Shown here one piece after another: positions 3,001 to 37,560 of a stretch of DNA of 42,466 nt; the stretch's first letter is position 1, and each line of letters starts with the position of its first letter. The stretch spans positions 1 to 42,466 of the forward strand of contig UBXV01000010.1 in assembly GCA_900469625.1 (NCBI GenBank), read 5' to 3'. The translations under genes and the position numbers were made by a program. The stretch comes from Hyphomicrobiales bacterium. GTDB lineage: Bacteria > Pseudomonadota > Alphaproteobacteria > Rhizobiales > Rhizobiaceae. The notes below the pieces were generated by a model that was given only the letters and a program-made list of their open reading frames with translations, made no database searches and was not told where the DNA came from.

Positions 3001-6000
3001 TCGTCGCCCTCGTTGCCGAGGAGGACCCCGCCGCCGGTGGGCGCCCGGATGAAGTCGTTGCCTTCGCCGCCCGAAATCGTCTTCTGATCCTCGCCGCCGG
3101 CCAGAACGTCGTTGCCGTCGCCGCCAAAGATGAGGTCGAGGCCCATGCCACCGTTGATGATGTCGTCGCCGCCCTCGCCCTTGATCACGTCGGCGGCGCC
3201 GATGTCGGTGCCGCTGTCGGTGATGATGTCGTCGCCGTCACCGCCATGCAGGTGGTCGACGCCAAACCCGCCCTCGATGCGGTCGTCGCCGCCTTCACCC
3301 CAGATCGTGTCGTCGCCGGAGCCGCCGATCAGCGTCTCGCCGGTATTGGTGCCGCCGAGGACCACGTGCTGGTCGCCGGTAAATCGCAGGTAGTTGGCCG
3401 CGCGCACGACCAGGGAGGTCGTACCGGTGATGGCGGAGATCACGTCGGCCTCGCCGGTCGGGTCGGCGTTGCCGATCCCCCTGTTGTACTGCTTCGACTG
3501 ATCCATCGCGATGATGTAGTCGGCCGTCTGGAACGCGGCACCGTTGATGTGCAGGCCGGTTTCCTCGGTGTCGGTGTTGCGGCGGATCAGGTCTGCGAAG
3601 CTGTCGCTTTCCAGCTCGTTCAAAAGGTTCTGACCCTGCGTGCGGCTCAGATAGTAGAAGCGGTCGCCGTTCTGCAGGTTCTGGATCTGCAGCTCGAACA
3701 CGTAGGTGAAAGTCGAGCCGAGCATGCCGCCAAAGGGCATCAGCGCTTCGGCAAGGCCGCCGATCCAGAAATCGACCTTGTTGAGACCGGTTTCGCGGGC
3801 GGCCCAGCTGCCGGTCGAGTTCAGGTAGTCGAGGCGCGCCTGACGCTCTCCGGCCGTCTCGCCTGCAACGCCGAAGACCAGATCCCACGCAGCGTCGCGC
3901 TTGGCTTCCGCGGTCGTGGCCGCGGTGATCGCGTCATGCGTGCCATAGGCGGCGATAAAGTTGACGATCGACAGCGGGTTCTTGATGTGCTGGGCGAAAT
4001 CTGCCCAGCTTTCATAGGGTTTGAGATAGGTGTCGTTCGTCTGTTCGTAGATCTGGCGCCGGGCCTCGTTGAGCGACGGCACGCCGGTTTCGCGAGCGCG
4101 GGCGATGTTGAGTGCGGCAAGGTCCAGCGGCAGGCCTACGAGGTTGTTGCGCAGCGCGCTGGTCGTGAACTCGTCAATCTCGTTGCCGGCCTGCCGGGTC
4201 ATGCCACGAAGGATTGCGCCCGAGGCCGCGTGCGCATCGACGCCTGCGCTGTTGAAGATGATCGGGTTCAGGAAAGCGTCGATCAGGCCGACTTCTTCCG
4301 GCGTTGCCGCATTGTTGCTGAGCTTCAGCATCTCGACGTTCTCGGCAAGCATCGAGTGGCCGAAGCGATAGACGACCTGGGCAAACTCCTCGTAAATCAC
4401 CGCGTCGATCTCGACGGAATGCGAGAACACGAACGGATCGATCTGCGGGGCGACGGCGCGCACGAACTCTTCGAAGACCAGATGCTGGTAGACCATTTCG
4501 GTCGAGAAGCGCGCCGCCTGGAACAGCCGTTCGCCATCCCAGATCAAAGTGGACAAGTCGGCCGGTAGGCTCGTCACATCGACCAGCAGCCATTCGTTGA
4601 GGAGCGCCAGGTCGCCTTCGGCCAGGAGCGTCGCCTTGATCTCGTCGACCTGGCGATTGTGCTCGCTGTGGAAGATAGAGTGGGTCGCCGTCAGCGCGAC
4701 GTTTTCGTTGCCGCGGCCATCGCCGACGATGAAGTGGGCGTTCAACAGCTCGTCGTCATAGGTGAGGTTGAAACCGAACTGGTTGGGAATGATGGGGTTT
4801 CCGGCGACATTGTCGGCATCCGGCAGCACCGCCACGGGTGCTGTCGCCGGGTTGCGGTCATGGTCGATCGGTGCGCTCGGCACCGCGTTGTGGGCGATGT
4901 CGTTAAGGAAGGCCCGGCCGGCGCTGAGGCTGGTCAGCGCATTGAGCGGCGCTGCGAGATTGCCTTCGACGGGTCCCGTCGCCGTCACCATCAGGGGCAG
5001 ACCATTGGCGCCGCGCACGAACTCGCCATAGAGGTCGGTCACGAGAAGCGGCACGCTGTGGACGTTGAGATCGCTGAGCTCGATGCCCAGCAACTCGCGC
5101 GCCTGGGCCTTGATGTCGCCCCAGGTGGGCGGGCCGCCGTTTGCGCCTTCGAGCATCTGGCCCGTCGCCATCGGCTTGCCGCCGACCATGACATACTCGC
5201 GCAGGAACACCTGGTGCGAGGGGTTGGAGGTATAGACCTGGTTGAGGTCGATCCAGGGCGTTGTCTCGTTGCGATGATCGCGGATGTCGTCGGAGGTCCC
5301 GACCTGGCCATCCGGGCCGGCATGGACGGCATCGTTGGTTGCGCGGGTCAGAACCATGAAGTTGGTCGGGCTGCCCGGCACGTAGAGCGGGTCGTCCGGT
5401 TGCAGCGGAATGATGACGTTGCCGCTGCCGCCCTTGGAGGTGAGATCGAGGCCGTGGTCGAAGAACTGGCCGAAGATCGTCATGAAGCCGTTGAAGGAAG
5501 CGGTGTCGCCGAGGTCGGCGGCGATGTTCTTGATGAAGACGTTGTCGCCGTCCATCGTCACGCCATGCGAAGTGACTTCGGCGATCACGGCTGCATCGGC
5601 GGCCGCCGCGGCAGCGACGGCCGCCGCAGTTGCCGCGCCGCCCGTCGGGATGGCGTCGCGCGCCTCGATCGCGTCGGCGAGAGCGTCAGTTGCCTGGGCA
5701 AGGTCGCCGGTGGCGGCGGTCAAGCCTGCATCGGCATCGGCAAGAACTGCCGCCGCATCCGCGACCTCTCCCTGAGCAAGACTTGCCGCATTCGACAGCA
5801 CCTGCTGCTCGGCAATCGCGTCCTGCAGGGCGGTGACCGTCGCGGCATGCGCAGACTGGGCGGCCCCGAGCGCGGCGACGGCGTCTTCATGGTCCTCGAC
5901 GGCCTGGGCATGGATGATCTGCGCATCGTCGCGCGCATCGGCGGCCGCCGCATAGGCTGCGGCGTTGGCAGGGCTCGGGTCGTTCAGGAAGGCGGACAGC

Positions 6001-6818
6001 GCGCTCGCCTCTGCCTGCTGAGCAAGGGCGAGATTGGCAAGGGCGATGTTCTTGGATGCTTCCGCGGCGACTGCGGCAGCCGCAGCGGACTGGCTGGCGA
6101 CGAGTGCGGCGGCGACAGCCGATTGGGCCGCGGTAACGACGGAGGCATGGGCATCACGCGCAGCGACAGCGGATGCCAGCGCCGCGTTGGCGGCAGCAAG
6201 GTCCTGTGCGGCGCCCGCCTGTCCGGCGGCTGCCGTATCGAAGGCAGACTGCGCGGTGGCCTGCGCGGCCTGCGCATTGGCGACGATCACGTTGGCAGCA
6301 GCTACGGCGGCGTCGGCGTCAGCGGTCGCGTCGGCGACAGCTGCGTGCGCGGCTCGGGCCGCCGCCTGCAACTGCATGACTTCGCCGATGATCTGCAGCG
6401 CCTGCGAGCCGGTGATGCCGACGGAAGCAAGCGCGCCGGAGATGGCGGCGGGGTTGTTGAGCGACTGATCGGCGACGATGTTCGAGATCATGCGTGGCTG
6501 GCTGTCGTAGACCGAACCGCCGAGATCGGCATAGCTCGTCGGCAGACCGTTGCGGATGTTGGTTTCAGCGGCCGCATAGTTCGGCGTCAGCAGCCGGGCC
6601 ATCACCTGGTCCGAAGAGCCGAAGTGCGTCATGTTCGGCTGGAAATTGTTGTAGGAACCGTCAACGGTGCGCAGGCCGTAGGGAAGCAGCGGGCTTGATA
6701 CCAGCTGTTCGAGTGCCACCCGCGGGTCGACACCGTTCTCGATGGCCGCGGTGTGGGCCTCCGCGATCTTGATCTGCTTCAGGATGAAGTCGAGGTCGTT
6801 TCGGTTCAGCTGTACCAT
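1..6818 (-). CDS. Giant RTX-type animal-heme-peroxidase, MopA-like (partial, cut by left edge)
   Basis: The frame is open from ATG at 6818 (preceded by ACGGAGGG) to the left edge, giving at least 2272 residues with no stop seen. Order: an N-terminal peroxidase stretch (1-150); a long Ala-rich, probably coiled-coil insert (about 150-413); the main animal-heme-peroxidase domain with distal GQFFDHG (Asp454-His455), an HSEHNR motif, and YRFGHSML carrying the likely proximal His821; Ca-binding nonapeptide repeats (GGSGDD, GGDGDD, GGGGSD) from about 1165 to 1495; beta-sandwich/cadherin-like segments; and more RTX repeats near 2030-2075. No Sec signal is visible. RTX proteins are normally exported by type I secretion through a C-terminal signal, which lies outside the window. 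Related MopA proteins oxidise Mn(II) in Aurantimonas and Roseobacter relatives. Mn oxidation here is inferred. Plus-strand open frames across this region are shadows of it. Confidence 0.93.
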   Translation of the reverse strand, partial: MVQLNRNDLDFILKQIKIAEAHTAAIENGVDPRVALEQLVSSPLLPYGLRTVDGSYNNFQPNMTHFGSSDQVMARLLTPNYAAAETNIRNGLPTSYADLGGSVYDSQPRMISNIVADQSLNNPAAISGALASVGITGSQALQIIGEVMQLQAAARAAHAAVADATADADAAVAAANVIVANAQAAQATAQSAFDTAAAGQAGAAQDLAAANAALASAVAARDAHASVVTAAQSAVAAALVASQSAAAAAVAAEASKNIALANLALAQQAEASALSAFLNDPSPANAAAYAAAADARDDAQIIHAQAVEDHEDAVAALGAAQSAHAATVTALQDAIAEQQVLSNAASLAQGEVADAAAVLADADAGLTAATGDLAQATDALADAIEARDAIPTGGAATAAAVAAAAAADAAVIAEVTSHGVTMDGDNVFIKNIAADLGDTASFNGFMTIFGQFFDHGLDLTSKGGSGNVIIPLQPDDPLYVPGSPTNFMVLTRATNDAVHAGPDGQVGTSDDIRDHRNETTPWIDLNQVYTSNPSHQVFLREYVMVGGKPMATGQMLEGANGGPPTWGDIKAQARELLGIELSDLNVHSVPLLVTDLYGEFVRGANGLPLMVTATGPVEGNLAAPLNALTSLSAGRAFLNDIAHNAVPSAPIDHDRNPATAPVAVLPDADNVAGNPIIPNQFGFNLTYDDELLNAHFIVGDGRGNENVALTATHSIFHSEHNRQVDEIKATLLAEGDLALLNEWLLVDVTSLPADLSTLIWDGERLFQAARFSTEMVYQHLVFEEFVRAVAPQIDPFVFSHSVEIDAVIYEEFAQVVYRFGHSMLAENVEMLKLSNNAATPEEVGLIDAFLNPIIFNSAGVDAHAASGAILRGMTRQAGNEIDEFTTSALRNNLVGLPLDLAALNIARARETGVPSLNEARRQIYEQTNDTYLKPYESWADFAQHIKNPLSIVNFIAAYGTHDAITAATTAEAKRDAAWDLVFGVAGETAGERQARLDYLNSTGSWAARETGLNKVDFWIGGLAEALMPFGGMLGSTFTYVFELQIQNLQNGDRFYYLSRTQGQNLLNELESDSFADLIRRNTDTEETGLHINGAAFQTADYIIAMDQSKQYNRGIGNADPTGEADVISAITGTTSLVVRAANYLRFTGDQHVVLGGTNTGETLIGGSGDDTIWGEGGDDRIEGGFGVDHLHGGDGDDIITDSGTDIGAADVIKGEGGDDIINGGMGLDLIFGGDGNDVLAGGEDQKTISGGEGNDFIRAPTGGGVLLGNEGDDWMEAQGNMTTLTGDNSELFFNSRVIGHDVMIAGENDTDFDGESGDDIMVQGIGINRSNGMAGFDWTSFQNNDYGADANMNISIFVNQQNNIVRDRYDLVEGLSGWDHNDRLTGRDVVIGGYDPNGNAAQVEPDAPIESFSNALLEKNVDRIAGLRDLVAHLQRFEIYNPHNLDANGNPINPAGEMQLGVMDTSDGSDIILGGGGSDIIRGMGGNDIIDGDKWLNVRILVTPDLSRGQIWTPFSIDSIADIQARLFSGEIKPRQLQVVREILDGGNEGDVDTAVYYDDFENYEITYNDDGSVTVAHINPTVGIVDPETGRTLEAEGTDRLFNIERIQFADRVLDLRLPTVDLHAFESQSYRDQFATASYANSNGTVPWASSWTEANDRVGNEATTGEIRINAGQLEFRQDTGGGSTPAGASITRGIDLSTVGNGTATLSFSYQEANLDNGETLQVQYSTDGQNFTTLQTLNNTSNNGTASLTLTGPFTDTAAIRFLFSGVDAGNETVRIDNVNVQFTRPIDDGSTGWTSTFVEDQAAVGISSLAGIASNEQIVSARVVLTNAAAGDVLTATTGNGRPAGISVQQTAANGQIVLQFSGTGTAADYQRALDAVRFENTSDNPSTTPRQIAVTVNDGIRNSSVATATVNVTAVQDPTVANDDSIVTNVARGTAIIIPEWAFLYNDVDPDSTLDVTAVSNPNGLTGVSLTTNPGSVTLTDPTNGAAGGQFTYTATGSNADNANVSLGYDTVGTITGGNGSQILVGNDAANTFNAGAGNDVILAGGGDDIIEQTSNEGRDIIDGGTGSDTYRLSGAQGAEQFRIYAVTNGQNAGLAASLNTAFLASTEIVITRTVAGVETVVAELDNIEEIIVGNLNVTANNGNGTPDGGAGGGDTIQVIGNFDSTSLNYSTITIEGSSGDDIVDISSLTSAHRIVFRSNGGKDTIVGTLRPQDVVEIPAGADPASYQATDNGNGTTTLSSGEHTITFHGAAPTLVPVNDDDAGS

Positions 6819-8089: not shown

Positions 8090-9322
8090 TTACCGCGAGG
8101 CTTTCTCGCTCTCGAGGGAACCGGCGCCCGCGGGGCGCCGCAGGCGGCCGTTCAGGACGATATGGGCGACAAGCCCGATCAGCAGACCCCAGAACGCTCC
8201 GCCGATCCCGAGCATCTTGATGTTTGCGGCGGACGCAAGGAAGGTGATCAACGCTGCTTCGCGGGAGGTCGGGTCAGCCATCGCACCCGCCAGGCTGCCG
8301 CCGATGGTGCCGAGCAGGGCCAAACCGGCGAGCGTGGTGATAAACGTCGTGGGGAACGCCAGGAAAACCGCAGCAAGCGTCACGCCGAAGACGCCGACCA
8401 GCACATAGAAACAGCCTGCCGCGATGCCGGCAACCCACCGTCTGGACGGGTCGTCATGGGCTTCCCTGCCGGTGGCAATCGCCGCGGTGATGGCCGCGAT
8501 GTTGAAGGCGTGGGAGCCGAAGGGAGCCATGACCAGCGAGCCAAGACCCGTGACCGTCACGATGGGATTGGCACTCGTCGTGAACCCGTCGTTCCGCAAG
8601 ACCAGCATTCCCGGCATGTACTGGCCGGTGAGCGTTATCAGGAACAGCGGCATTGCGACGGAGAGCAGCGCGTTCAACGAAAACGCGGGCATGGTGAAGA
8701 CCGGGACGGCGAATTCCAGCTTCAGCCCGGACAGATCGACGCGACCTTGAACCAGCAGGAAGGCAAGTCCGAGAACAAGGATGCCCACCACCGCGTATCG
8801 GGCGGAGAGGCGCTTGAGTGCAAGATAGGCAACGATCAGAACGCCGACGAGCAGTGGGTCGACGCTCGCGCCGCCGAACGCTCCGATACCGAACGGCAGC
8901 AGGATGCCTGCGAGAAGACCCGAGGCGATGCCAGGTGGAATAAGGCGGATCACCTTGTCGAAACAACCTGATATGCCGAGCACGACGAAAGCAGCCGCCG
9001 AAATCATGTAGGCGCCGACCGCCTCGGCGTAGGGCGTCGACGCCAGGGCCGTCACGAGAAACGCCGCGGCCGGGGTCGACCACGCCGTGATGATCGGTGC
9101 GCGGTGGCGCCAGCTCAGGAACAGTCCCGTGAGCCCCACCCCGATCGAGACCGACCACACCCAGGAGGCCGTCGCCGCGGGGCTCAAGCCGGCGGCTTTC
9201 GCCGCCTGAAAGACCAGGATGAAGGTGCCGCCATAGTTGACGATGACAGAGATCAGACCGGCGACGATGGGGTGGGCGAGATCCTCGGGGCGGGTGGCGG
9301 AATGGGAAGGCTCAGACGGCAT
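8090..9322 (-). CDS. benE: BenE-family benzoate/H+ symporter-like transporter
   Basis: About 410 residues, nearly all hydrophobic with around 12 predicted membrane segments, starting at HPIVAGLISVIVNYGGTFIL. The pattern fits the BenE family (COG3135), inner-membrane proton symporters for benzoate and similar aromatic acids: conserved polar/Gly-rich segments such as WSTPAAAFLV and PFGSHAFNIAAITAAI, and usual length near 400. The start at 9322 (MPSEPSHS) has GGAG 12 bases upstream. A longer reading from ATG 9376 adds 18 residues but has no ribosome site and would run close to the palindrome at 9380-9392. It is divergent from a MocR-type regulator, the likely controller. No benzoate catabolic genes are nearby, so the real substrate is uncertain. 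Confidence 0.85.
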   Translation of the reverse strand: MPSEPSHSATRPEDLAHPIVAGLISVIVNYGGTFILVFQAAKAAGLSPAATASWVWSVSIGVGLTGLFLSWRHRAPIITAWSTPAAAFLVTALASTPYAEAVGAYMISAAAFVVLGISGCFDKVIRLIPPGIASGLLAGILLPFGIGAFGGASVDPLLVGVLIVAYLALKRLSARYAVVGILVLGLAFLLVQGRVDLSGLKLEFAVPVFTMPAFSLNALLSVAMPLFLITLTGQYMPGMLVLRNDGFTTSANPIVTVTGLGSLVMAPFGSHAFNIAAITAAIATGREAHDDPSRRWVAGIAAGCFYVLVGVFGVTLAAVFLAFPTTFITTLAGLALLGTIGGSLAGAMADPTSREAALITFLASAANIKMLGIGGAFWGLLIGLVAHIVLNGRLRRPAGAGSLESEKASR

Positions 9323-9379
9323 GTGGTGAAAAGTCTCCGGACGTACGGGCGCAAGGCCGACAAGGTTTCTTGACATCTA

Positions 9380-9392
9380 GCCAATGATTGGC
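9380..9392. promoter_or_regulatory. Palindromic operator candidate between benE-like and mocR-like genes
   Basis: GCCAATGATTGGC is a perfect inverted repeat (6-base arms, one central base) in the 110-base gap between the divergent transporter and MocR-type regulator genes. Position and symmetry suit an operator for the local regulator; this is inferred. Its position also favours the shorter start codons chosen for both genes. Confidence 0.45.
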
Positions 9393-9432
9393 CCGATATG
9401 CCCTGCCACATTGCGCATCAGGACCAGACCAT

Positions 9433-10911
9433 TTGTTCAAGCATTCCCTCCTCGAATCCGTGAAAGCGTGGATCGCACATCCTGCCCAGGCGGCAATGCC
9501 GCTACACGCCCGGATCCAGCGCGCCGTCAGGCAACTGATCGTTGACGGCGCACTTGGCCCGGGCAACCGGCTGCCCGCGTCCCGCGCGCTCGCCACGTCG
9601 CTCGGCGTCTCGCGCGATACGATCGAGGCGTCCTACGCCCAGCTTCACGCCGAGGGGTTCATCGAAAGGCGTGTGGGCAGCGGCAGCTTCGTTGCGCAGA
9701 TCACGGAGTTCACCCCCTCTCGCCGCGCGCAGCGGAACACGCCGTCGCCCGGCCAGCCTCCCAACCTCAGCAAGCGCGGTGATGCGATGTTAGGCGGCGG
9801 CGGCGTGCGCGAGCACCTTTCCCCACGCCCCTTCGCGCATGGCGTGCCGGACACGCGCGCCTTTCCGCTTCCTCTCTGGGAACGCCTCGAAAGACAGGTC
9901 CGCAAGGAACTCGGGACGCAGACGCTGCTTCACGGCGATCCGCAGGGCGCCGAACCGCTTCGCCGTGCCATTGCCGACTACGTGAACGTGGAACGCGGCG
10001 CTCGTGCCACCGCAGACCGCGTGCTGGTATTGACGAGCTCGCAGCAGGCCCTGTGGCTGTGCGCAAACATTCTTTTGGATCCGGGTGACAGGATCTTCAT
10101 CGAGGACCCTGCCTATTATGGCGCGCGAAAGGCCTTTACGGCGGCTGGACTGGAATGCGTTCACATCCGTGTGGATCGACAGGGCATCGTGGCGGACGAG
10201 ATCATCGCCGCGCCGCAGAAGGCCAAGGCGGTCTTCCTGACGCCCTCGCACCAATTCCCGACCGGCGCGACACTGGCACTGGACCGCCGCCTGGCATTGA
10301 TCGAGTGGGCCGCGCGGCATCGGACGTGGATCATTGAAGACGATTACGACAGCGAGTTTCATTATGCCGGCAAGCCCACGGCCTGCGTGCAGGGTCTCGA
10401 TGCTAACGACCGGACAGTCTATATCGGCACCTTCACCAAGTCGCTTTTTCCCGGTCTGCGCATAGGCTATGCGGTATTGCCGCCCCAGCTCGTGAAGCCG
10501 ATGACGGTGGCGCGCACGCTGCTGGATGGTCATACCGCGCCGATGGCGCAACTGACGCTCGCCCGCTTCATCGAGGGTGGGCATTTTGGCGCACATATTC
10601 GCACGATGCGCGGCGTCTATGCCGGGCGCCTGGAAAAACTGGCGCTGCTCGTTCGCAAGCACCTGCCGGATGTCGAGCCGCGCGTTCCGGCAGGCGGACT
10701 GCAGATGCCTTGCGTGCTCAACGGCGACCTCTCGGAACGCGCCGCCGTCGACGCGGCGCGACGGGTCGGGATCGAGCTTCTCGGTTTGTCGGCGCTCCAT
10801 CACGCAGGCAACGGCGAGGCAGGATTTCTGATGGGATTTGCGGCCTACACGCCTCTGGAAATCGAGAGCGCGGTCAGGAAGCTGGCCAAGACACTTCAGT
10901 CGGTGAGGTGA
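9433..10911 (+). CDS. MocR/PdxR-family regulator (GntR HTH + aminotransferase fold)
   Basis: 492 residues from a TTG start at 9433, chosen because AGGA sits 9 bases upstream (9420-9423). The upstream TTG at 9388 has no ribosome site and overlaps the palindrome. The N-terminal winged helix (about 15-85) shows PLHARIQRAVRQLIVDGALG and GNRLPASRALATSLGVSRDT, typical of GntR. The C-terminal part (about 125-490) is a fold-type I aminotransferase domain with IEDDYDSEFHY and the PLP lysine in GTFTKSLFPGLRIGY (near residue 336). MocR proteins use PLP or PLP adducts to sense vitamin B6 or amino compounds. This one probably controls the divergent BenE-type gene. It also lies immediately upstream of the aminoketone-type cluster, so a role there is possible but unproved. 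Confidence 0.92.
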   Translation: MFKHSLLESVKAWIAHPAQAAMPLHARIQRAVRQLIVDGALGPGNRLPASRALATSLGVSRDTIEASYAQLHAEGFIERRVGSGSFVAQITEFTPSRRAQRNTPSPGQPPNLSKRGDAMLGGGGVREHLSPRPFAHGVPDTRAFPLPLWERLERQVRKELGTQTLLHGDPQGAEPLRRAIADYVNVERGARATADRVLVLTSSQQALWLCANILLDPGDRIFIEDPAYYGARKAFTAAGLECVHIRVDRQGIVADEIIAAPQKAKAVFLTPSHQFPTGATLALDRRLALIEWAARHRTWIIEDDYDSEFHYAGKPTACVQGLDANDRTVYIGTFTKSLFPGLRIGYAVLPPQLVKPMTVARTLLDGHTAPMAQLTLARFIEGGHFGAHIRTMRGVYAGRLEKLALLVRKHLPDVEPRVPAGGLQMPCVLNGDLSERAAVDAARRVGIELLGLSALHHAGNGEAGFLMGFAAYTPLEIESAVRKLAKTLQSVR

Positions 10912-11267: not shown

Positions 11268-12305
11268 ATGTCGAGCCAGCCACAGTCCATCGCGGGTGCA
11301 CCGCGGATGGATGATCGCCCATTGTGGGATGTCATTTTCGGCATCTTCGGACTGCCGGCACTGTTTATTTCCCATCGGCTTGATCTCTTCAGGTTCGTTG
11401 CCGATAAGAACCCGACGCTCGGAGAACTCGGCGAAGGCCTGAAGCTTGAGCGGCGCGGCGCTCAGATCCTTGCAAGCACCGCGACTGCGTTGGGGTTCCT
11501 CGCCCTCACGGAAGGCCGCTATCGTTTGACGCCGCTGTCGCAGACCTATTTGCTGGATAGCAGCCCCACCTATTTCGGGCATTACTGGGATCTCCTGATC
11601 GACAACCACGAGGTCTTTTCGTTCGCGGCCTTGGAGACAGCCATCGTCAGTGGCGTGCCGCAGGCCTACGGCGTCGAGGACATCTACGAAACCCATCGCG
11701 AAGACGCCGAACGCACACGGGCATTTACCCGCGCGATGCACTCGGTCAGCGTGTCTGCCGCTTTCGGATGGACGCGCGTCCTGGATCTCTCCACCCACCG
11801 CAGAATGCTGGATATCGGTGGAGGGTCGGGTGCGCATGCCCTGATGGCGTCAAGGGTCGCCCCGCAGCTTCGCGCAACGGTGTTCGATCTCGCAACAGTC
11901 TGCCCGGTGGCCGAGGAATTCATCGCCCGGGCCGGCCTTGCCGATCGCGTCGATGCCCGCAAGGGCGATATGTGGACTGACCCGTTTCCCCCAGCCGACC
12001 TGCATTTCTACTCGCATGTCTTTCATGGCTGGTCGCCGGAAAAGTGCCGGTTCCTTAGCGACAAGAGCTTTGAGAGCCTCGAACCCGGCGGACGGATCAT
12101 CATCCACGAGTTCCTGTATGACGACGCCGGCAAGACCGGGCCCTTTCCGGCAGCGGCGACAAGCATGATCATGCTCGGCTGGGGGGAAGGCGAGCAGTAT
12201 TCGGGCCCGCAGATCAGCGGATTTCTGGAGGGCGCGGGCTTCCGCGATATCCGGATCATCCCGGCTTTCGGCTACCACAGCATCGTGACGGGACAAAAGC
12301 CGTGA
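11268..12305 (+). CDS. SAM-dependent O-methyltransferase (hydroxyindole/caffeate OMT type)
   Basis: 345 residues, normal for class II small-molecule O-methyltransferases. The N-terminal 110 residues form the winged-helix dimerisation part (LPALFISHRLDLFRFVADKN; GFLALTEGRYRLTPLSQTYL). The Rossmann SAM domain has motif I as MLDIGGGSGAHALMASRV (near 180-198), then TVFDLA, then KGDMW. The segment HFYSHVFHGWSPEKC holds the His expected for the general base, followed by LEPGGRIIIHEFLYDD. Start supported by AAAGGA six bases upstream. It is the first gene of a plus-strand cluster; its stop overlaps the next start as GTGA, implying translational coupling. It probably methylates a hydroxyl on the product of the downstream synthetase; the acceptor is unknown. 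Confidence 0.9.
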   Translation: MSSQPQSIAGAPRMDDRPLWDVIFGIFGLPALFISHRLDLFRFVADKNPTLGELGEGLKLERRGAQILASTATALGFLALTEGRYRLTPLSQTYLLDSSPTYFGHYWDLLIDNHEVFSFAALETAIVSGVPQAYGVEDIYETHREDAERTRAFTRAMHSVSVSAAFGWTRVLDLSTHRRMLDIGGGSGAHALMASRVAPQLRATVFDLATVCPVAEEFIARAGLADRVDARKGDMWTDPFPPADLHFYSHVFHGWSPEKCRFLSDKSFESLEPGGRIIIHEFLYDDAGKTGPFPAAATSMIMLGWGEGEQYSGPQISGFLEGAGFRDIRIIPAFGYHSIVTGQKP

Positions 12306-13714
12306 ACCGTTCCCAAGGGCACCCGACCGCCACTGAGGTCGAGCAATTCTCCCGGGCGCTCGATGGTCGGGTCTGCAGCCGGCTGTCGGCTGACTACGAG
12401 ACCCGCCGACGGGCACTTGTCTGGAACGGCCGTCCACCAGAGTGCTTTCCGTCCTTGATCGTCGAGGCGCGCTCGGCGCCGGACGTTGTCGTTGCCGTGG
12501 AATTCGCGCGTCACCACAAGCTCGTGGTCGGCGTGCGCGGCACGGGCCATAGCTACAGCTCGATCTTCATGTGCGATGCCGGATTGCTGATCGACCTGTC
12601 GCGGATGAACACGCTCACAGTCGATCGTTCGGAGCACCGCATCGTCGTCGAAGCGGGAGCGACGAGCGGCGAGGTCGCAGCCGCCCTCGAACGCGAGGGG
12701 TTGGCCTTTCCCGTTGGCCACGGCGCACCCGTCGGGATCGGCGGCTTTCTTCTGGGTGGCGGGCTCGGGATCAATTGTGCCGCATGGGGCGGCATGAGCA
12801 CCTTCAACATCCTGGCGGCCGATATCGTCACCGCCGACGGGGCCGAGCGACACGCCAGCCCCACCGAGAACCCCGATCTGTTCTGGGCTATGCGTGGCGG
12901 CGGGCCCGGACTGCCGTTCATCGTCACCCGCTTCCATCTCCACTGCTATGATCAGCCGGGTGCGATCACGAGCAACACCTATTTGCTGCGCTTTGCCGTA
13001 CTGCCTCACCTTGCGGCCGCTCTGGACGCGATCGCGCCCACGCTCGACCGGCGGCTTCAGGTCATGCTGGCAGTGATCTCGGCGCCACTGGAACTCGCCA
13101 GCCACTGCGCTCCCGAAGATCACGGCCGCATTGCCGCCCTTACCGCCATCGCCTTTGCGCATGACGCGGTGGAGGCGCGGACGCTGCAGGCCCCGCTGGC
13201 GGAATTGCCGATCCTGTCGGACTGCCTGGTGCGCGTGCAAGATCAGGCAACGACATTCGCCGGCATTCTTGGCCAGGGAGAAACCCTTCTGGTCTCGAAA
13301 CGCTTTCGCACCGACAATGTGCTTTGCGATCAGCTGGGCGTGGCCGTCGACATCATCATGCGCCACCTGCCGACCGCGCCCTCGCCCGCCAGCCTGTCCC
13401 TGATCGTCTGGCGGGGGCAGCATGACCACCCGGACGCCGCCTACTCGGTTTCGGGCCGATATTTTGTCTCGACCTACGCGCAATGGGGCTCAGCCGAGGA
13501 CGACCCGGTCAACGGCGCCTGGCTCAAACACTTCTATGACGAGATGGCGGCGATCGCGACCGGAGCCTACGTCAACGAGTTCGATCTGGAAGCCCGGCTC
13601 GACGATATCGGGCGCTGCTATTCCACGTCCGCGCTCGAGCGCCTGCGGACATTGCGCCAACGGCATGATCCGGACGCGATCTTTTACAATCCGTTTGCCC
13701 GATCGCATCATTGA
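12302..13714 (+). CDS. FAD-linked oxidase, berberine-bridge-enzyme-like (PCMH + BBE)
   Basis: 470 residues from a GTG start that overlaps the methyltransferase stop. The PCMH-type FAD domain shows GVRGTGHSYSS, whose His aligns with the residue that carries 8-alpha-histidyl FAD, and then GAPVGIGGFLLGGGLGINCA. Bicovalent family members have a Cys four residues before VGIGG; here that position is Gly, so only single covalent attachment is expected. The C-terminal BBE segment ends with RHDPDAIFYNPFARS, the usual FAD-binding tail (Asn in YNP). No signal peptide, so cytoplasmic. Relatives oxidise alcohols, amines or form rings using O2. Here it likely oxidises or cyclises an intermediate of the cluster; the substrate is unknown. 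Confidence 0.92.
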   Translation: MNRSQGHPTATEVEQFSRALDGRVCSRLSADYETRRRALVWNGRPPECFPSLIVEARSAPDVVVAVEFARHHKLVVGVRGTGHSYSSIFMCDAGLLIDLSRMNTLTVDRSEHRIVVEAGATSGEVAAALEREGLAFPVGHGAPVGIGGFLLGGGLGINCAAWGGMSTFNILAADIVTADGAERHASPTENPDLFWAMRGGGPGLPFIVTRFHLHCYDQPGAITSNTYLLRFAVLPHLAAALDAIAPTLDRRLQVMLAVISAPLELASHCAPEDHGRIAALTAIAFAHDAVEARTLQAPLAELPILSDCLVRVQDQATTFAGILGQGETLLVSKRFRTDNVLCDQLGVAVDIIMRHLPTAPSPASLSLIVWRGQHDHPDAAYSVSGRYFVSTYAQWGSAEDDPVNGAWLKHFYDEMAAIATGAYVNEFDLEARLDDIGRCYSTSALERLRTLRQRHDPDAIFYNPFARSHH

Positions 13715-13722
13715 GAGGTCCC

Positions 13723-14754
13723 ATGTCGATGCGCGTTCGCACCTACGGCAGCATCGAAGAAGCGGATCCAGTCCGCTGGGATGAGCTGGTTGTCGGCTGC
13801 GGCGCGCCGGTTTTCTACCGCTCGGCGTTCCTGCGTGCGTTCGAGCGATTTCCCCTTCACGGCGTGCGCTCGCATGTCTACATCACCGGTGAGGACGAAC
13901 ACGGCACGCTTGTCTTTGCAATGCCAGTCTACGTCATTCGCGGCATCGATCCGATGAGGGTGCTGCACGATCATTTCCCGGCCTTCGGCGACGAGACCGT
14001 GCTCGTCAATCACGTCTGGCATTGCTACGACACCTGGATCCCGACGCGCCGTCTCGATCCGGACATCGTCGGCGCGGTGCTGTGGACGATGGAGGCCCTG
14101 GCCGCTGATCTCGGTGCATCCCTTTGGGGATTTACCAACGTCGATGGCACCGGCGCGCTGGCCCGCGCGCTGACGGCCGCCGGCATGACGGGGATCCAGG
14201 TCGATGAGCGCTTCCTTGCCGACGTCTCGGCCATTCCCGACATCGATCACTACCTTGCAACGCTCGATCATCCCGTGCGCTCGAATTTGCGGCGCTACAC
14301 ACGCATTGCGCAGCGCGCCGGCGTCGTCGCCGGCATCGCGGATGTGGAACACGCCGACCTCGAAGGATTTGTTGCGCTGGCCAGGGCCGGCGCTGCCAAG
14401 TACGGCAATGCCGACTACTACCGTCCGGGTGTTTTCGAGGGCTTCCTGCGCGATCTTGGCGGGCACGTGCGCGTATTCGAACAGCGGCTTGGCGATAGAT
14501 TGATCGGCTCCACGGTCCTGCTCGTCGACGAAAAGACGCTGCATTGGTGGGTTGCCGGCAACGACTACAGCGCCGTGCCCCAGATCAGCCCATTCTATCT
14601 CGCCTGTCTGGCCGCCATCAACGAAGCGCTGATCACAGGAAAGCCGAGGGTCGAAGCGGGCCGTCGCAACCCACGCTTCAAGACGCGGCACGGCCTCAGA
14701 CCGCGGCCGGTTCAGGCGTATTTCATGCCAACGTTTCAGCGCGCCGCCACCTGA
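13723..14754 (+). CDS. FemAB/GNAT-like acyltransferase (PF04339/Acetyltransf_6 type)
   Basis: 343 residues. The start at 13723 (MSMRVRTYG) lies 4 bases after GAGAGG (13713-13718), which itself overlaps the stop of the preceding gene; ATG 13729 is an alternative with a 10-base spacing. The protein shows the double-GNAT layout of FemAB-like proteins: an N-terminal half with GAPVFYRSAFLRAFERFP, and a C-terminal half with VRSNLRRYTRIAQRAG, DYYRPGVFEGFLRDLGGHV, then GDRLIGSTVLLVDEKTLHWW and the end of the fold at GRRNPRFKTRHGLRPRPVQA. Such proteins transfer aminoacyl or acyl groups to amines. In this cluster it could acylate the amino group of the aminoketone product, or join an amino acid from aminoacyl-tRNA. 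Both are inference. Confidence 0.75.
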   Translation: MSMRVRTYGSIEEADPVRWDELVVGCGAPVFYRSAFLRAFERFPLHGVRSHVYITGEDEHGTLVFAMPVYVIRGIDPMRVLHDHFPAFGDETVLVNHVWHCYDTWIPTRRLDPDIVGAVLWTMEALAADLGASLWGFTNVDGTGALARALTAAGMTGIQVDERFLADVSAIPDIDHYLATLDHPVRSNLRRYTRIAQRAGVVAGIADVEHADLEGFVALARAGAAKYGNADYYRPGVFEGFLRDLGGHVRVFEQRLGDRLIGSTVLLVDEKTLHWWVAGNDYSAVPQISPFYLACLAAINEALITGKPRVEAGRRNPRFKTRHGLRPRPVQAYFMPTFQRAAT

Positions 14755-14826
14755 CGGGTCCTTTGCGATCACAGTGGCAGGGCTTCCGTCAGTCGAAGCT
14801 CGCGTTAGTGAAGAAGGGGGAAACCC

Positions 14827-17800
14827 ATGACATCCAGTGCCGATGCCAAGGACGGCGAGTATCAGCGCTTTGTATGGCGTCTACCGGCCGTCGATCCGGA
14901 AAGCCTGCTGGCGATGGCCGTCGCTTTGCACCACCTGTTCGACGGCGTATTTACCGGCAAGACCTGGTTGTGCCGCAACGCCGATGCCGATGCCCCGCTG
15001 TTTTCAGCGATCGAACTGGCCCGCCTCACGGGCGGCTCGATCAATCTCGGTACATGCCGCACGCTCGCAATGGAGGCGGGCACCGACCGGCGAAATACGC
15101 TCGGCGACGGCGAGCATGTGATCATCTGCAGTGGAGCCGCCTTGGACGTGGCAACCGTCACGCGCTGGCGTCCCCGCACGGCGTTCGCTGTGGAGCCCAC
15201 GTCGAACGCGGATGTCGTGACCATCACCTATATCCAGCGGCAGAACGGTTTCAATGATCCGGGCTTCCCGGACATATTGGAGCGTGCGCTGCGTTGTCTG
15301 GTGGCGTCCGTCCGGCACGGCGCAGACGATGCCGCCGATATCGTCAAGCTCCTCCAACCGGCGCTTCCCGCCCAGACGATGACTGCCGATGCCGTCGGAA
15401 GTGGCGAGGATCTGTTCATCCGGCGCTTTTCCACGATTGCGGCACGCGCACCCGATCGTGCGGCGATCGTCGCCGGGGATACAATCATGCGCTACGGCGA
15501 ACTTGCCCGCATGACCGATGGCATCGCGTCGGCTTGGCGGAATTTGGGACTGTCGAAGGGCGACAGGCTGCTGTTGATCGCTCCGCGCGGGCCTGCGCTG
15601 GTTGCAACCGTTGTCGCCGCATTCAAAGCCGGGCTTGCGGTGTGTCTGGTCGACCCGCGCCAGCCGGACGCCTACGTCGCGGCCTGCCGGCGGATCGTCC
15701 AGCCGGCGCTGGTGGTCAATCTGGCCGGCCGGCAGCTGGACTTGCCGGGGGTTCCTGTTGCGACAGAGGTCTTGCTCGACCCGAACACCCAGGCGCCGGC
15801 GATAGACACCGACTGCTTGGATGGCGACGACTGTGCGGTCATCACACTCACCTCAGGGACCACCCGTGAGCCGAAGGCGGTCGCGGGGCGGTACAGCTCA
15901 CTCACACATTTCTTCGATTGGATGGGCGATCGGTTCGGGCCGATGGACGACGCGGCTTTCGGGATGTGCTCCAGCATCGGCCATGATCCGTTGCAACGCG
16001 ACATCATGACCCCGCTCTACCTCGGTGGTCGCATCGTCATACCGGACGAACATGATTTGAGCGAGCCACTGCGTCTGCCGCGATGGCTGGCGGCAAACAG
16101 GATCGAGTTTGCCTGCCTCAACGCAGCGCTCGTACCTTGGCTCGGCGAAACGACACGCCTGCCACATCTGCGCGCGCTTTTTTGCGTCGGCGGGGCACTC
16201 ACACGGTCGCAGGCCATAGCGCTGCGCGCCGCGGCGCCGGCCGCCCGGATCGTCAATCTCTACGGCGCGACGGAAACCCAGCGCGCGGTCGGGTTCTACG
16301 AATTGCCGGGCGATCGCGAGGCGCTCGCGGCTCTGCCGGACGTGGTTCCGCTCGGACGCGGCATGAACGACGTAAACCTTCTGGTGAGGGATCGTGCGCA
16401 TCGGCGACTAACCCTGCCTTTCCAGATCGGGGAGATCGCGCTCAACAGCCGATATCTTGCCCTCGGCTATCTCGGCGACACCGAACTGACGACCCGCAGG
16501 TTCAGGCACGACGTCCTGCCGGAACCGAACGATGCCCCGACCTATCTGACCGGAGACCTCGGATATGTGTCGATGCGTTACGGCGTCGTCTTTGCCGGCC
16601 GGATGGACGATCAAAAGAAGATCAGTGGCTACCGGATCGAACCCACGGCCATCGACGATGTGTGCCGCCAGCACCCGGAGGTCGGCAACGCCGCCACACT
16701 TGTCATTGATGTGGATGGCTTGCCGACGTTGGTAACCTGCATCGTCCCGATACGGCCTCCAGGCGCACTTGAAGACCTTCGCCACTGGCTCGCCGCGCGC
16801 CTGCCACACTATATGGTTCCCCATCGCCTGTGCGCGATGGACGATTTCCCGCTCACGCTCAACCGAAAGGTCGACACCAGGGCGCTGGCCGCGCGAGTGC
16901 ACCTGCAGATCGAGACGGACGCCGTCGCGGCGCGTGAATCGGCGATGGCTGCCGCGCCCATCGACGCGATTTCAGCGTTCGTCTTTCGGCATACCGGCCT
17001 GGAGGATGCGACACGCCAGGTGCCGCTGGCCGACCTCGGCGTCGACTCGCTGCGGTTCGTGGAGCTGGTGACACAACTGAGCAGCGATCTCGGAAGCAGC
17101 GAGCAAAGAATTGCAAGGCTTCACAACGGGATGTCCATCGTCGAGCTGGCGTCGGCACTTGCCGGTGAAGTCCGGCGCGATCGAACGGCTCCAGCAGGGC
17201 TGCAGGCCACAATCCAACCACACACCAACCCGCGCGATCTTCTGGGACCGGTGCTCGACGTCGATGAAACCCGCATCCGCTTCGAGCAGGGAACATTCGA
17301 CCACTGCTGCTCCAACAGCTACCTCGGACTTGCCGGCCGGCCCGGCACCCGCATAGAGGTCGCGCATTTTCTCGAGCAATCGCAAGCGCATGGCGCGCAT
17401 GGATCGGCAGAGCTGAATGGATTTACCTCCTGGCACGAACAATTGGCGGCCGCGATCGGGGCACTACATGGCAGCGAGGCCACCCTGCTCTACAGTTCAG
17501 GCTACATGGCCAATATTTCCACTATACCTTCCGTGGTCGAGGGCGATGCCCACCTGTTCATCGACGAGAGCTGCCATCAGTCCCTCGTGGATGGTTGCCG
17601 ATTGAGCGGCGCAAGAATATCCATCTACCGCCACAACGACGCGGATAGTCTCGAGCAGCTGCTTTCAAAGACCTCGCGCTCTCGCGCCGGCACGCACGCA
17701 ATCGTCACGGAAGGCGTGTTCAGCATTGAAGGCGACCTGCTGGACCTTCCGGCATTTCACGCCATCGCCCGTCGCTTCGAGTGCCTGCTCATTGTTGACG

Positions 17801-18360
17801 AGGCCTGTTCACTCGGCCAGATCGGTGTTGATGGATCGGGCGTGGAAACCCATTTCGGCTTGCCGGGATCGATCGACGTGCGGACCGGCACGCTGGCAAA
17901 AGCGCTCGGCTCGACGGGTGGATATGCCACCTGCCACGCCGAACACGCATCGCGCCTGCGTTTTCAGCGTGGCGCGAGTTTTTCAACCAGCCTCTCTCCC
18001 TTGAATGCGTTCATCGCGTTGCAAGGCGCACAGCTGATGCGAAAGGAGGGCCCCGCGCTGAAGAGGCGGCTTGATCACAACAGTGCGGTGTGGCGCGATG
18101 GGCTCAACGCATTGGGTTTCGACACCGCGCAATCCTCGGCCGCGATCGTGCCGATCATGTGTGCGGACCCCGATGCGGTCGCCTCCCTGTTCCGGCGTGC
18201 GCTCGAACTGGGCGTCTATGCATTGCCCGTGTCGCGGCCCTGGTCGCGGCGCGTGAATGCGCTGCGCACCTCGGTAACGGCCGAGCACGAGCCCGATCGG
18301 TTGCGGGAAATCATCACCCGTTTCAGAAGTGACGCGGCAAACAGCAATTGGCTGCAGTGA
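14827..18360 (+). CDS. Lys2-like adenylation-carrier protein fused to alpha-oxoamine synthase
   Basis: 1177 residues; start backed by GAAGGGGG. Residues 1-185 look like a shortened condensation-type domain. The adenylation domain (about 195-690) has LTSGTTREPKAV, GHDPLQRDIMTPLYLGG, NLYGATETQRAVGFY, YLTGDLG, GRMDDQKKISGYRIEP and the late lysine in LNRKVD. HDPxQRD and ETQRAV are signatures I know from Lys2-type aminoadipate reductases; the Asp expected for amino-acid binding is present. The carrier domain has DLGVDSLRF with Ser741. The rest (about 810-1177) is a full PLP alpha-oxoamine synthase (BioF/KBL/ALAS/SPT family): HGAHGSAELNG, DESCHQSLVDG, Asp991 in IVDEACS, and PLP Lys1025 in TGTLAKALGSTGGY. 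There is no thioesterase or reductase. Expected chemistry: the carrier-bound acyl group condenses with a second amino acid, losing CO2, to release an alpha-aminoketone. Substrates unknown. Confidence 0.93.
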   Translation: MTSSADAKDGEYQRFVWRLPAVDPESLLAMAVALHHLFDGVFTGKTWLCRNADADAPLFSAIELARLTGGSINLGTCRTLAMEAGTDRRNTLGDGEHVIICSGAALDVATVTRWRPRTAFAVEPTSNADVVTITYIQRQNGFNDPGFPDILERALRCLVASVRHGADDAADIVKLLQPALPAQTMTADAVGSGEDLFIRRFSTIAARAPDRAAIVAGDTIMRYGELARMTDGIASAWRNLGLSKGDRLLLIAPRGPALVATVVAAFKAGLAVCLVDPRQPDAYVAACRRIVQPALVVNLAGRQLDLPGVPVATEVLLDPNTQAPAIDTDCLDGDDCAVITLTSGTTREPKAVAGRYSSLTHFFDWMGDRFGPMDDAAFGMCSSIGHDPLQRDIMTPLYLGGRIVIPDEHDLSEPLRLPRWLAANRIEFACLNAALVPWLGETTRLPHLRALFCVGGALTRSQAIALRAAAPAARIVNLYGATETQRAVGFYELPGDREALAALPDVVPLGRGMNDVNLLVRDRAHRRLTLPFQIGEIALNSRYLALGYLGDTELTTRRFRHDVLPEPNDAPTYLTGDLGYVSMRYGVVFAGRMDDQKKISGYRIEPTAIDDVCRQHPEVGNAATLVIDVDGLPTLVTCIVPIRPPGALEDLRHWLAARLPHYMVPHRLCAMDDFPLTLNRKVDTRALAARVHLQIETDAVAARESAMAAAPIDAISAFVFRHTGLEDATRQVPLADLGVDSLRFVELVTQLSSDLGSSEQRIARLHNGMSIVELASALAGEVRRDRTAPAGLQATIQPHTNPRDLLGPVLDVDETRIRFEQGTFDHCCSNSYLGLAGRPGTRIEVAHFLEQSQAHGAHGSAELNGFTSWHEQLAAAIGALHGSEATLLYSSGYMANISTIPSVVEGDAHLFIDESCHQSLVDGCRLSGARISIYRHNDADSLEQLLSKTSRSRAGTHAIVTEGVFSIEGDLLDLPAFHAIARRFECLLIVDEACSLGQIGVDGSGVETHFGLPGSIDVRTGTLAKALGSTGGYATCHAEHASRLRFQRGASFSTSLSPLNAFIALQGAQLMRKEGPALKRRLDHNSAVWRDGLNALGFDTAQSSAAIVPIMCADPDAVASLFRRALELGVYALPVSRPWSRRVNALRTSVTAEHEPDRLREIITRFRSDAANSNWLQ

Positions 18361-18448: not shown

Positions 18449-19396
18449 TCAGCCGTGTTCCCTTCGGTCCGTTCGCCATATCCTGTCGATGACGTCAAAG
18501 GCGAGCGCCACGTTCGGATCAGTGCGCCGGGGCCGCAGACAGACGAAGCCGAGCGTGGTCTCCAGCTTGACCCTGTCGGCAATGATGAGCCCGTTTGCCT
18601 GTTGTTCGCCGAGTGCAATCGACTCACGACAGAGGCTGAGACCGAGCCCGGTGCGCACCATGGCCAGCATCGATGTTTCCTGATCGACGAGCGCGACGAC
18701 GTTTTGCCTCAGGTTCAAGGCGCCGAGCTTTCGCGCAAGCAACCGGTGATGGACGGAGGCGGGCGGCGTGCCGATCCAGGGCAAGGCCGCAAGCTCGCTC
18801 CAGTCCTTGCCCGCGACGATGCCGGCGAAGGACGGCGGCGCGACCACGCGGTAGGTCAGCCGCGCGAGCGGCTTGACGAAGAACTGGGCATCCGCGTCGA
18901 TCGCCACGGCATCGGTGCTCGTGCCGAAATCATCGAGATCGCCCAGGAAAAAGCCGACATCAAGCTCGTTGCGCTTCAGGCCGATCGCGACTTCGCCGCT
19001 CATGCCCTGGCGCAAGGTGGTCTCGATACCGGGGCCGCTTTCGACCAGCGCCTGCAGGAAGGCGCCGAGCCGGGTAAATTCCGGGTCAATGATTGTGCCG
19101 ATCCTGAGCGTGCCGCGAAGATGGGCGGTCAGATGCATCGCCGTCTGCCGAAACTCGGTGACCGACGCCAGCACCTGCTCGCCCTTTGCCGCCAGAAGTG
19201 CGCCATCGCGCGTCAGCTCCAACCCGCTGGCCGTGCGGTGAAACAGCGTGAGGCCAAGATCCTGCGACAGGCGCTTGATCTGCAGGCTGACGGCGGGCTG
19301 GGTGAGGTGCAGCAGTTCCGACGCCCGGGTAACGTTGCCTTCCCGCGCCACCGTGACGAAAGCCCGCAGCAACCGCAGATCCAGATGATCCGACAT
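18449..19396 (-). CDS. LysR-family transcriptional regulator
   Basis: 315 residues, normal for the family. The N-terminal winged HTH shows LRLLRAFVTVAREGNVTRAS, LHLTQPAVSLQIKRLSQDLG and LFHRTASGLELTRDG; the C-terminal part is a type 2 periplasmic-binding-like effector domain. AGGG stands upstream of ATG 19396. It is transcribed away from the GMC oxidoreductase gene, the usual arrangement for a LysR protein and its target, and converges on the aminoketone-type synthetase. The likely target is the GMC gene, but control of the neighbouring cluster cannot be ruled out. The effector is unknown. Confidence 0.92.
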   Translation of the reverse strand: MSDHLDLRLLRAFVTVAREGNVTRASELLHLTQPAVSLQIKRLSQDLGLTLFHRTASGLELTRDGALLAAKGEQVLASVTEFRQTAMHLTAHLRGTLRIGTIIDPEFTRLGAFLQALVESGPGIETTLRQGMSGEVAIGLKRNELDVGFFLGDLDDFGTSTDAVAIDADAQFFVKPLARLTYRVVAPPSFAGIVAGKDWSELAALPWIGTPPASVHHRLLARKLGALNLRQNVVALVDQETSMLAMVRTGLGLSLCRESIALGEQQANGLIIADRVKLETTLGFVCLRPRRTDPNVALAFDVIDRIWRTDRREHG

Positions 19397-30037: not shown

Positions 30038-30632
30038 CAACGATCCTCCCATATGAAGGATAATGTGACGGTGAACGGCTGCAAAGCGACCAAAGTCGGA
30101 CCTTTACGGCGACCTTGGTGTTTCCGGCGCATTTCACACCGAATTTAACTGGACAAAAATAATCATAAAAAAATCGGCGTTTGGCGAGAAAAAATCGCGA
30201 GCCGGTCGTCTTTGTTTGAAAGCGCATGCCGACGCACTGCGCCGAAAGCCGAGACGGGTGGAAGATGAACGCACCGGAATGCCGTAACGGACGTCCGCCG
30301 TTCCGGGGGAAACGAGGCTTGACCGGCCCGTTTCTGCCTGGGACGCGCGCGGCCGACACCCGTGCGTCCTTGGCTTTGCACGCTGTTTCGCCTTCGCCCG
30401 TCAACGGCGGATCAGCCGGACACACTCCGTCCGGACCGCTCTCCCGTGATGCCCGGCTTCCCGCCGGGCGCACCTTGCGCCAATCCCACCCGCCACCAGC
30501 GGCGGGCGGCACACCGGTGGCGACGCACATCGCGCCAACCTGAGAAAGCTCACCAGGAAAATTCAATGCGTTGCGCCTCCCACGCGACGCGATTGCGCGA
30601 CTTTGCATGTCGCGTGCCGAGGATCGACAAAC
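30038..30632. other. Long intergenic region upstream of the petrobactin operon
   Basis: 595 bases. The left part (30145-30195) is AT-rich and likely carries promoters. The middle (30400-30510) is a GC-rich run of inverted repeats, listed separately. Open frames of about 100 codons cross it on both strands but look like structure-driven shadows (Pro/Arg/Gly-rich, no ribosome site). I looked for Fur, RirA (TGA-N9-TCA) and Irr sites near the operon start and found no exact match. Confidence 0.5.
30416..30506. ncRNA. Candidate structured RNA or palindromic repeat cluster
   Basis: Four perfect inverted repeats lie within 91 bases: CCGGAC-7-GTCCGG (30416-30434), GCCCGGC-5-GCCGGGC (30451-30469), GGCGC-5-GCGCC (30467-30481) and CCCGCC-6-GGCGGG (30489-30506). 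The second and third overlap by three bases, so they cannot form together. This density exceeds anything else in the window. It could be a leader RNA, an sRNA or a REP-type element; the strand is unknown. It does not match a riboswitch class I can recognise. Confidence 0.35.
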
Positions 30633-36718: not shown

Positions 36719-37560
36719 ACATCTCGCTGTGCACGATCACGTTCCGTCATCACCTGATGTCGCTCGGCGAAATCGCCGCCTGGGCACAATCCAACGACTT
36801 CCAGGGCATCGAGCTCTGGGGCGCGCATGCGCGCAATCTGGCGCAACAGCCCGACCGCAACGCCGACTGGCTGGACACGTTCGGATTGAAGGTGCCGATG
36901 ATCAGCGACTATCTGCCCCTCGAAGGCGATGCGGAGACGCTCAGGCTGAAGACAGTCGAGCTTTGCCGGCTCGCCCGCCGCTGGCGCACCCGCAAGATCC
37001 GCACCTTTGCCGGCAACAGCGGCAGCCTCTCCGTTTGTGAAGATGAACGGCAACGCATCGTGGAGCGGCTGCGGGAGATATGCGCTGTTGTCGCCGGCTA
37101 CGGCATCCAGTTGCTAGCCGAAACGCACCCGAAGACGCTGGCCGATACCGCCGCCTCGACATCGCGACTGATCGAAGAGGTGGATCATCCCGCCTTTGCC
37201 ATCAACTTCGATACCCTCCATGTCTGGGAGGGCGGCGACGACCCCATTGCCGTCCTGCGGAAGATGAAGCCGCACATCCGCCACTACCACCTGAAGAACG
37301 TGCGCGACCGGACGGACCTCGCGGTCTTCGAGCCGGCCAACGTCTATGCCGCCGCCGGGCGGCGCGACGGCATGACGCCGCTGTTCGAGGGCACCGTCGA
37401 TTATGCCGATTTCCTCGCGGAGATCGCCGGCGACGGCCAGATCGATGCCTCGCTCGAATGGTTCGGCAACGATTGCCTCGACGTCCTCAGGCGCGACCGC
37501 CGGCAGGTTCGCCGGGTCATCGAGGGACAGGAACCGGTACGGCGCTCAGTCAACTTTTAG
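36715..37560 (+). CDS. asbF: 3-dehydroshikimate dehydratase AsbF-like
   Basis: 281 residues, matching AsbF (about 280). A TIM-barrel of the xylose-isomerase-like superfamily: MNISLCTITFRHHLMSLGEI at the N-terminus, GIELWGAHARN, and the metal-ligand set Glu136 (LLAETHP), Asp166 (INFDTLHVW), His192 (HYHLKNV) and Glu248 (ASLEWFG). It converts 3-dehydroshikimate to 3,4-dihydroxybenzoate, diverting shikimate-pathway carbon into the siderophore. Last gene of the operon; its ATG overlaps the stop of the fusion gene. An intrinsic terminator follows 46 bases later. Confidence 0.94.
   Translation: MNISLCTITFRHHLMSLGEIAAWAQSNDFQGIELWGAHARNLAQQPDRNADWLDTFGLKVPMISDYLPLEGDAETLRLKTVELCRLARRWRTRKIRTFAGNSGSLSVCEDERQRIVERLREICAVVAGYGIQLLAETHPKTLADTAASTSRLIEEVDHPAFAINFDTLHVWEGGDDPIAVLRKMKPHIRHYHLKNVRDRTDLAVFEPANVYAAAGRRDGMTPLFEGTVDYADFLAEIAGDGQIDASLEWFGNDCLDVLRRDRRQVRRVIEGQEPVRRSVNF

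Follow-up and report, generated by a model that had tools for sequence, protein, structure and literature searches.

Proteins in which an acid-activating domain is fused to an alpha-oxoamine synthase (AONS) have been described earlier, and they are among the nearest known counterparts of the 1177-residue synthetase encoded in a four-gene cluster at positions 11268–18360 (forward strand) of a 42,466-nucleotide stretch of DNA from a Hyphomicrobiales bacterium, below called the window. BioWF accepts Ala, Ser and Gly (PMC9544090) and, like the window protein, has acid activation fused to AONS; however, it follows the acyl-coenzyme A (acyl-CoA) route with a pimelate-type ligase, and the pages of that paper considered here mention no carrier domain, whereas the window chain has one. 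In PMC3870968 (2013), Table 2 has A-CP-PLP2 entries from Microscilla marina (A1ZVW4) and Blastopirellula marina (A3ZWL3), and the same paper has an A-CP-Luc-PLP2 chain in Nocardia brasiliensis, in each case with no product given in the section considered. The former two contain an adenylation (A) domain, a carrier and an AONS-type pyridoxal phosphate (PLP) domain in the same order as the window protein, thus the A–carrier–AONS architecture itself is not new, although the likeness is one of described domain order, and that section mentions no FemAB- or EncM-like partner, product or cluster type. On the other side, the aminoacyl-tRNA-dependent enzymes of the GNAT fold, DhpH-C, DhpK, PacB, VlmA, Orf11 and Sbb17, resemble another protein of the cluster in the fold (FemX, Sbb17, Sba18) and in the W, N, F and K residues of DhpH-C, but the relevant section of PMC12945691 associates none of them with AONS or EncM-like proteins. 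Judged by titles and the beginnings of abstracts, the open-access literature contained, among the matches listed, no cluster with this gene set, in agreement with the initial annotation, which knew of none, and no system combining carrier/AONS formation of an aminoketone with an aminoacyl-tRNA-dependent peptide bond and a flavin oxidase. We tentatively read the cluster, with somewhat less than an even chance, as one small operon whose product would be an N-aminoacylated aminoketone.

The four open reading frames (ORFs), their order and their tight packing, proposed initially, were confirmed together with the Pfam domains and all three junctions. The methyltransferase and flavin adenine dinucleotide (FAD) enzyme genes overlap by GTGA (12302–12305), the ribosome site-like TGAGAGG before the third gene overlaps the stop of the second, and 72 bases separate the FemAB-like gene, ending at 14754, from the synthetase gene, starting at 14827. 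There are two promoter-like sites in the cluster against 1.0 (standard deviation 1.0) in shuffled sequence, and four terminator-like sites against 5.3, none of them within the 72-base gap. Since the promoter-like sites are close to the shuffled expectation, it is the packing that argues for an operon.

The synthetase gene (14827–18360, +; PF00501 at 4e-42 and PF00155 at 1.4e-39) encodes an N-terminal stretch followed by the A, carrier and AONS domains in one chain (A-T-AONS). The AONS domain (17263–18321) is of the BioF/KBL/SPT type: it matches TIGR00858 (BioF) with 260 bits at residues 813–1165, followed by the KBL, SPT and ALAS models, all below the equivalog cut-offs, and so it falls in no named subfamily. 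The residues kept are the PLP lysine (in TGTLAKALGS), the histidine that stacks on the cofactor and the C-terminal arginine that binds the carboxylate, as seen in a five-row alignment and in the alignments with PDB structures. The rows counted were two PigH-type proteins, one from Streptomyces clavuligerus and two from Yersinia pekkanenii; L002, L004 and L006, being in wrong frames, were left out. By model match and key residues the domain thus belongs to the alpha-oxoamine synthase sequence family. At one position, however, its predicted active site departs from the canonical BioF-like one: it has Cys in VDEACSLG, where five of the five relatives have the His of D-x-x-H. This histidine sits at O3' of PLP; it is usual in the family, but not known to be defining. 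An engineered alpha-oxoamine synthase yields many aminoketones, according to the portion of PMC11906848 considered. The S. clavuligerus locus, which has A domains near its AONS, looks by eye like a different non-ribosomal peptide synthetase (NRPS) locus and was set aside.

Pfam gives no match at E 10 for the first 198 residues of the synthetase (14827–15420). They are followed by the A domain (15433–16899, borders approximate; PF00501) and by the carrier domain (16969–17181, borders approximate), with its serine in L-G-V-D-S and a weaker match to PF00550 (23.2 bits against the cut-off of 20.8, E 8.1e-5). Among the NCBIfam models, the excised A domain scores best with TIGR03443, that is, Lys2 of the alpha-aminoadipate type: 254.3 bits compared to 249.5 for the general model, and to a whole-enzyme cut-off of 1030. 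A distant NRPS (L061) has three A-domain matches in one 3,235-codon frame, and the last of them shows the same preference, 425.6 against 329.0 bits; the Lys2 model ranks first in none of six other A domains scored alongside. The pocket letters, read against a GrsA stretch, are DPRCFVLRA in the window and DPRHFVIRA in the distant NRPS; the Lys2 code is DPRHFVMRA. Lys2 activates the delta carboxyl. Its C-terminal reductase domain is absent from the synthetase, the AONS occupying its place. The Lys2-like A domain is a sign of clade and hints at side-chain-carboxyl activation, but is no proof of the substrate. As given in the part of PMC2823734 considered, aminoadipate reductases group with mono- and bimodular NRPSs, and these group with the bacterial ones.

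The FemAB-like gene (PF13480 at 7e-12, PF04339) occupies 13723–14754 (+) if it starts at ATG, or 13711–14754 if counted from TTG; the ATG start, giving 343 amino acids and lying just downstream of TGAGAGG, is likelier. The modelled protein has a double-GNAT fold (medium confidence; predicted local distance difference test score, pLDDT, 66.8; two sequences), and the top relatives in the fold search are FemX, Sbb17 and Sba18, aminoacyl-tRNA-dependent transferases. With VIA-align, FemX, FemA, Sbb17 and Sba18 are ahead of the CoA-using GNATs with assigned function by about 2.5–3.3 Z. The residues W276, N316, F319 and K320 of the window protein, matched by motif and spacing and not by structural superposition, retain the W...N-x-x-F-K set tested in DhpH-C (its lysine and W, N and F residues were taken for comparison from section 7 of PMC12945691). 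In this alignment L067 is the window gene itself, and rows L063 and L069, being misread, were left out. Because the fold is closest to that of FemX, Sbb17 and Sba18 and the DhpH-C residues are kept, the protein probably depends on aminoacyl-tRNA and adds an amino acid. Of the earlier description as a FemAB-like acyltransferase, the first half stands, while the fold and residues favour an aminoacyl-tRNA-dependent transferase over a generic acyltransferase. A FemAB profile at E 1e-20 found, in 309 genomes of the phylum, only the own genome, and 20 pattern matches in viral contigs included no relative.

The FAD gene (12302–13714, +; PF01565, FAD_binding_4, at 3.7e-27) encodes an FAD-linked oxidase/oxygenase of 470 amino acids. 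EncM is its best solved homologue, 3.3e-47 over residues 13–461, that is, nearly the full length, and the region of the EncM GHS histidine is aligned. Hence the protein is predicted to belong to the EncM/berberine-bridge flavoenzymes and to keep the position of the histidine through which these bind FAD covalently. The substrates of EncM are polyketides, and, unlike EncM, the window enzyme is paired with a FemAB-like protein. The nearest relative found is the C-terminal part of an 809-residue protein of Y. pekkanenii (43% over 468 residues), and the N-terminal part of the same protein is a FemAB relative (26% over 333 residues). Since the two are naturally fused there, the FemAB-like protein and the FAD oxidase probably act together, in sequence or in a complex. 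This makes the link between the two stronger than the initial annotation could know; the link of either to the AONS protein comes from this one locus. The Yersinia fusion is intact (L017, 1709–4138), has a short-chain dehydrogenase gene upstream and no synthetase within the 13-kb stretch. When it was compared with plasmids, one record covered most of it, the Serratia fonticola plasmid pSF001, where the FemAB–FAD pair is broken and by eye a similar short-chain dehydrogenase gene lies upstream; at the DNA level, E. coli genomes contained nothing matching the fusion. Scanning genome contigs with an FAD-enzyme fragment and two peptide patterns gave 22 pattern matches and one relative. A third FemAB relative comes from Azospirillum thermophilum (32% over 335 residues); used as a plasmid query, it matched only itself and the Serratia copy. 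Its plasmid locus (L014, 7522–15215) also contains genes for phosphonopyruvate decarboxylase and aminotransferases and is a possible phosphonopeptide cluster.

The first gene of the cluster (11268–12305, +; PF00891 at 7.6e-34) encodes a Methyltransf_2-type methyltransferase of 345 amino acids. The nearest solved structures are RedM and an MTHB methyltransferase/DSYB, and relatives with 43–45% identity are encoded on Nostoc and Gloeothece plasmids. It carries H-G-W, with the histidine retained from H-D-W, the usual motif of such enzymes, and is probably O-directed. An intergenic stretch on an Ensifer sp. PDNC004 plasmid (L012, 6002–6130) encodes 43 residues with 67% identity to this protein, a hint that at least the methyltransferase gene has a decayed counterpart there; the other three cluster proteins have no match in the 12 kb around it.

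Given these genes and domains, the mostly retained catalytic residues and the fusion elsewhere, we propose the following pathway, in which the reactions, substrates, order and product are all predictions. The A domain would activate a carboxylic acid, alpha-aminoadipate-like or another side-chain carboxylate, and load it onto the adjacent carrier; the fused AONS would join it with a free amino acid with loss of CO2, releasing an alpha-aminoketone. The FemAB-like enzyme would transfer an amino acid from aminoacyl-tRNA to an amine of the aminoketone, its natural partner, the EncM-like flavoenzyme, would oxidise the aminoacylated product, and the methyltransferase would cap a hydroxyl or carboxyl. 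If this holds, four genes would suffice for an aminoketone pathway compact enough to be transferred as a whole into a laboratory host, and the compact A-T-AONS protein with its predicted acid pocket would be a useful biocatalyst forming carbon–carbon bonds; should FemAB–FAD be a true two-step unit, it would provide a handle for finding more aminoacyl-tRNA-dependent pathways. That Lys2-type side-chain-carboxyl activation, the Cys-variant AONS and an aminoacyl-tRNA-derived peptide bond coupled to a flavin oxidase together yield an aminoacyl-aminoketone that is oxidised, methylated and structurally of a new class is a considerably bolder suggestion, to which we assign a small chance. Several observations weigh against the proposed pathway. 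Confidence in the FemAB model is only medium, and a fold does not prove the donor; moreover, a tandem GNAT from clavulanic acid biosynthesis equals Sba18 in the Foldseek E-value (1.2e-5). The substitution of Cys for His could lower or alter the AONS activity, and genes for a transporter, resistance and carrier activation are absent from the operon. Finally, the FemAB–FAD pair exists in Y. pekkanenii without A-T-AONS, which was not found in that genome at E 1e-10, the A domain giving no match.

The donor used by the FemAB-like protein separates the proposed pathway from one with the same aminoketone start, in which this protein is an ordinary acyl-CoA-dependent N-acyltransferase and the product an N-acyl aminoketone. 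Alaremycin-type pathways include an N-acetyltransferase, a text search of the open-access literature finding nothing on a pathway of this type. The VIA-align lead of the aminoacyl-tRNA-dependent enzymes and the retained DhpH-C residues make this unlikely, albeit with an appreciable residual probability. For the free aminoketone itself, the initial annotation suggested dimerisation to a pyrazine or closure to an oxazole. Free alpha-aminoketones do dimerise, but this would be prevented if the operon encodes an enzyme that acylates or aminoacylates the amine, so the pyrazine is disfavoured, whereas an N-acyl aminoketone could yet close to an oxazole; as a whole we regard this outcome as very unlikely.

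A rather improbable variant starts from side-chain activation of aminoadipate or glutamate: the alpha-amine then carried by the AONS product would close on the ketone to form a cyclic imine, the flavoenzyme would aromatise it, giving an amino acid with a pyridine or pyrrole ring, and the FemAB-like enzyme and methyltransferase would act afterwards. It agrees with the first rank of the Lys2 model for the window A domain and for the distant NRPS module, in contrast to the six other A domains, and with the similarity of the pocket to the Lys2 code. However, the Lys2 model is only slightly ahead of the general one, the score is far below the whole-enzyme cut-off, AONS-family models score higher within the 1177-residue protein, albeit in another domain, and pocket letters do not prove a substrate, in the comparison module no more than here. 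The four genes could also be two modules adjoining by chance, the first three forming one pathway and A-T-AONS another, as the Yersinia and Serratia loci, having FemAB–FAD and no A-T-AONS found, might suggest. The common strand, the 72-base gap, the chance level of terminator-like sites with none in that gap, and the position of all four genes between the same two conserved blocks reduce this to a low probability. At that, the unity of the set, seen at one locus only, derives from the packing, the shared borders and the FemAB–FAD fusion.

The A-T-AONS protein is rare. In what follows, the genome draws overlap, and in the large ones scoring was limited to the top two candidates of each listed genome. 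At E 1e-100 it was found in one of 16 genomes of the genus and one of 61 in a further draw, and it was likewise found once in 394 genomes of the family (1e-80), 397 of the order (1e-60) and 385 of the class (1e-60), always in the own genome. Thus the co-occurrence of the four genes in related genomes, offered initially as a test, was not observed. In 398 genomes of the phylum (E 1e-50), two partial matches appeared besides the own genome: the A domain late in the NRPS frame described above, and a locus from Pseudomonadota (L060, 2198–8011) with a 1,938-codon frame ending in carrier–AONS (33% over 455 residues). The other three proteins had no tblastn match in the stretches fetched around them (12.3 and 19.9 kb). 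Six exact peptide words searched in 84,980 species matched 11 stretches, none related; none of 72,556 plasmid records had a match covering 80%. In Y. pekkanenii, two matches at E 1e-10 both fall in the AONS half, in frames 413 and 387 residues long; the Serratia plasmid had no A-T-AONS match at this threshold. Overall, this is a real, rare orphan cluster built from known parts, with a predicted product.

Prodigiosin-type loci of Thioclava and Methylocystis, with AONS identity of 33–34%, are among the top plasmid matches that span the two synthetase halves. There, as in the window, one operon encodes an A domain, a carrier-linked AONS and a methyltransferase, the counterparts of PigI, PigH and PigF. 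However, the A domain (pocket DLFY...) and AONS are separate chains there, as opposed to one chain with another pocket in the window, and these loci have a ketosynthase, an acyl-CoA dehydrogenase and other genes that the window cluster lacks. Pfam searches of the four genes and 24 other window ORFs (to 40349) found no prodiginine/tambjamine ketosynthase, acyl-CoA dehydrogenase or prolyl A domain; the missing partner genes and the differing pocket argue against the bipyrrole pathway.

The window is the start of one contig (C55) of a 6.54-Mb assembly, and the cluster sits between a benE–pdxR block (about 8130–10886) and a lysR–GMC block (from 18449–18459). A pdxR homologue is present at E 1e-100 in nine other genomes of the genus; the benE–pdxR block was matched in six of six compared genus regions and the lysR–GMC block in four of four, and in none of these ten regions does the match extend into the cluster. 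In two genomes of the genus (G004 and G015) the blocks lie about 410–425 kb apart on one contig. Because the flanks are conserved without the cluster and A-T-AONS is present in one of 16 genus genomes, the cluster is either an accessory insertion or has survived here while being lost elsewhere. Its borders have only short imperfect repeats.

Elsewhere in the window, the plus-strand ORFs 51–2954, 2985–4568 and 4659–6698 match no Pfam family. They are antisense to a giant ORF of 2305 codons (6917–3, –) that runs off the contig start; by eye its product looks like a haem peroxidase of the animal type carrying calcium-binding glycine-aspartate repeats. At 30603–37560 (+) there is a petrobactin-type siderophore cluster. 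It encodes two IucA/IucC synthetases and a ligase resembling acyl-CoA synthetases; DUF6005 is in frame with an AsbD-like carrier, and a TIM-barrel protein occupies the position of AsbF.

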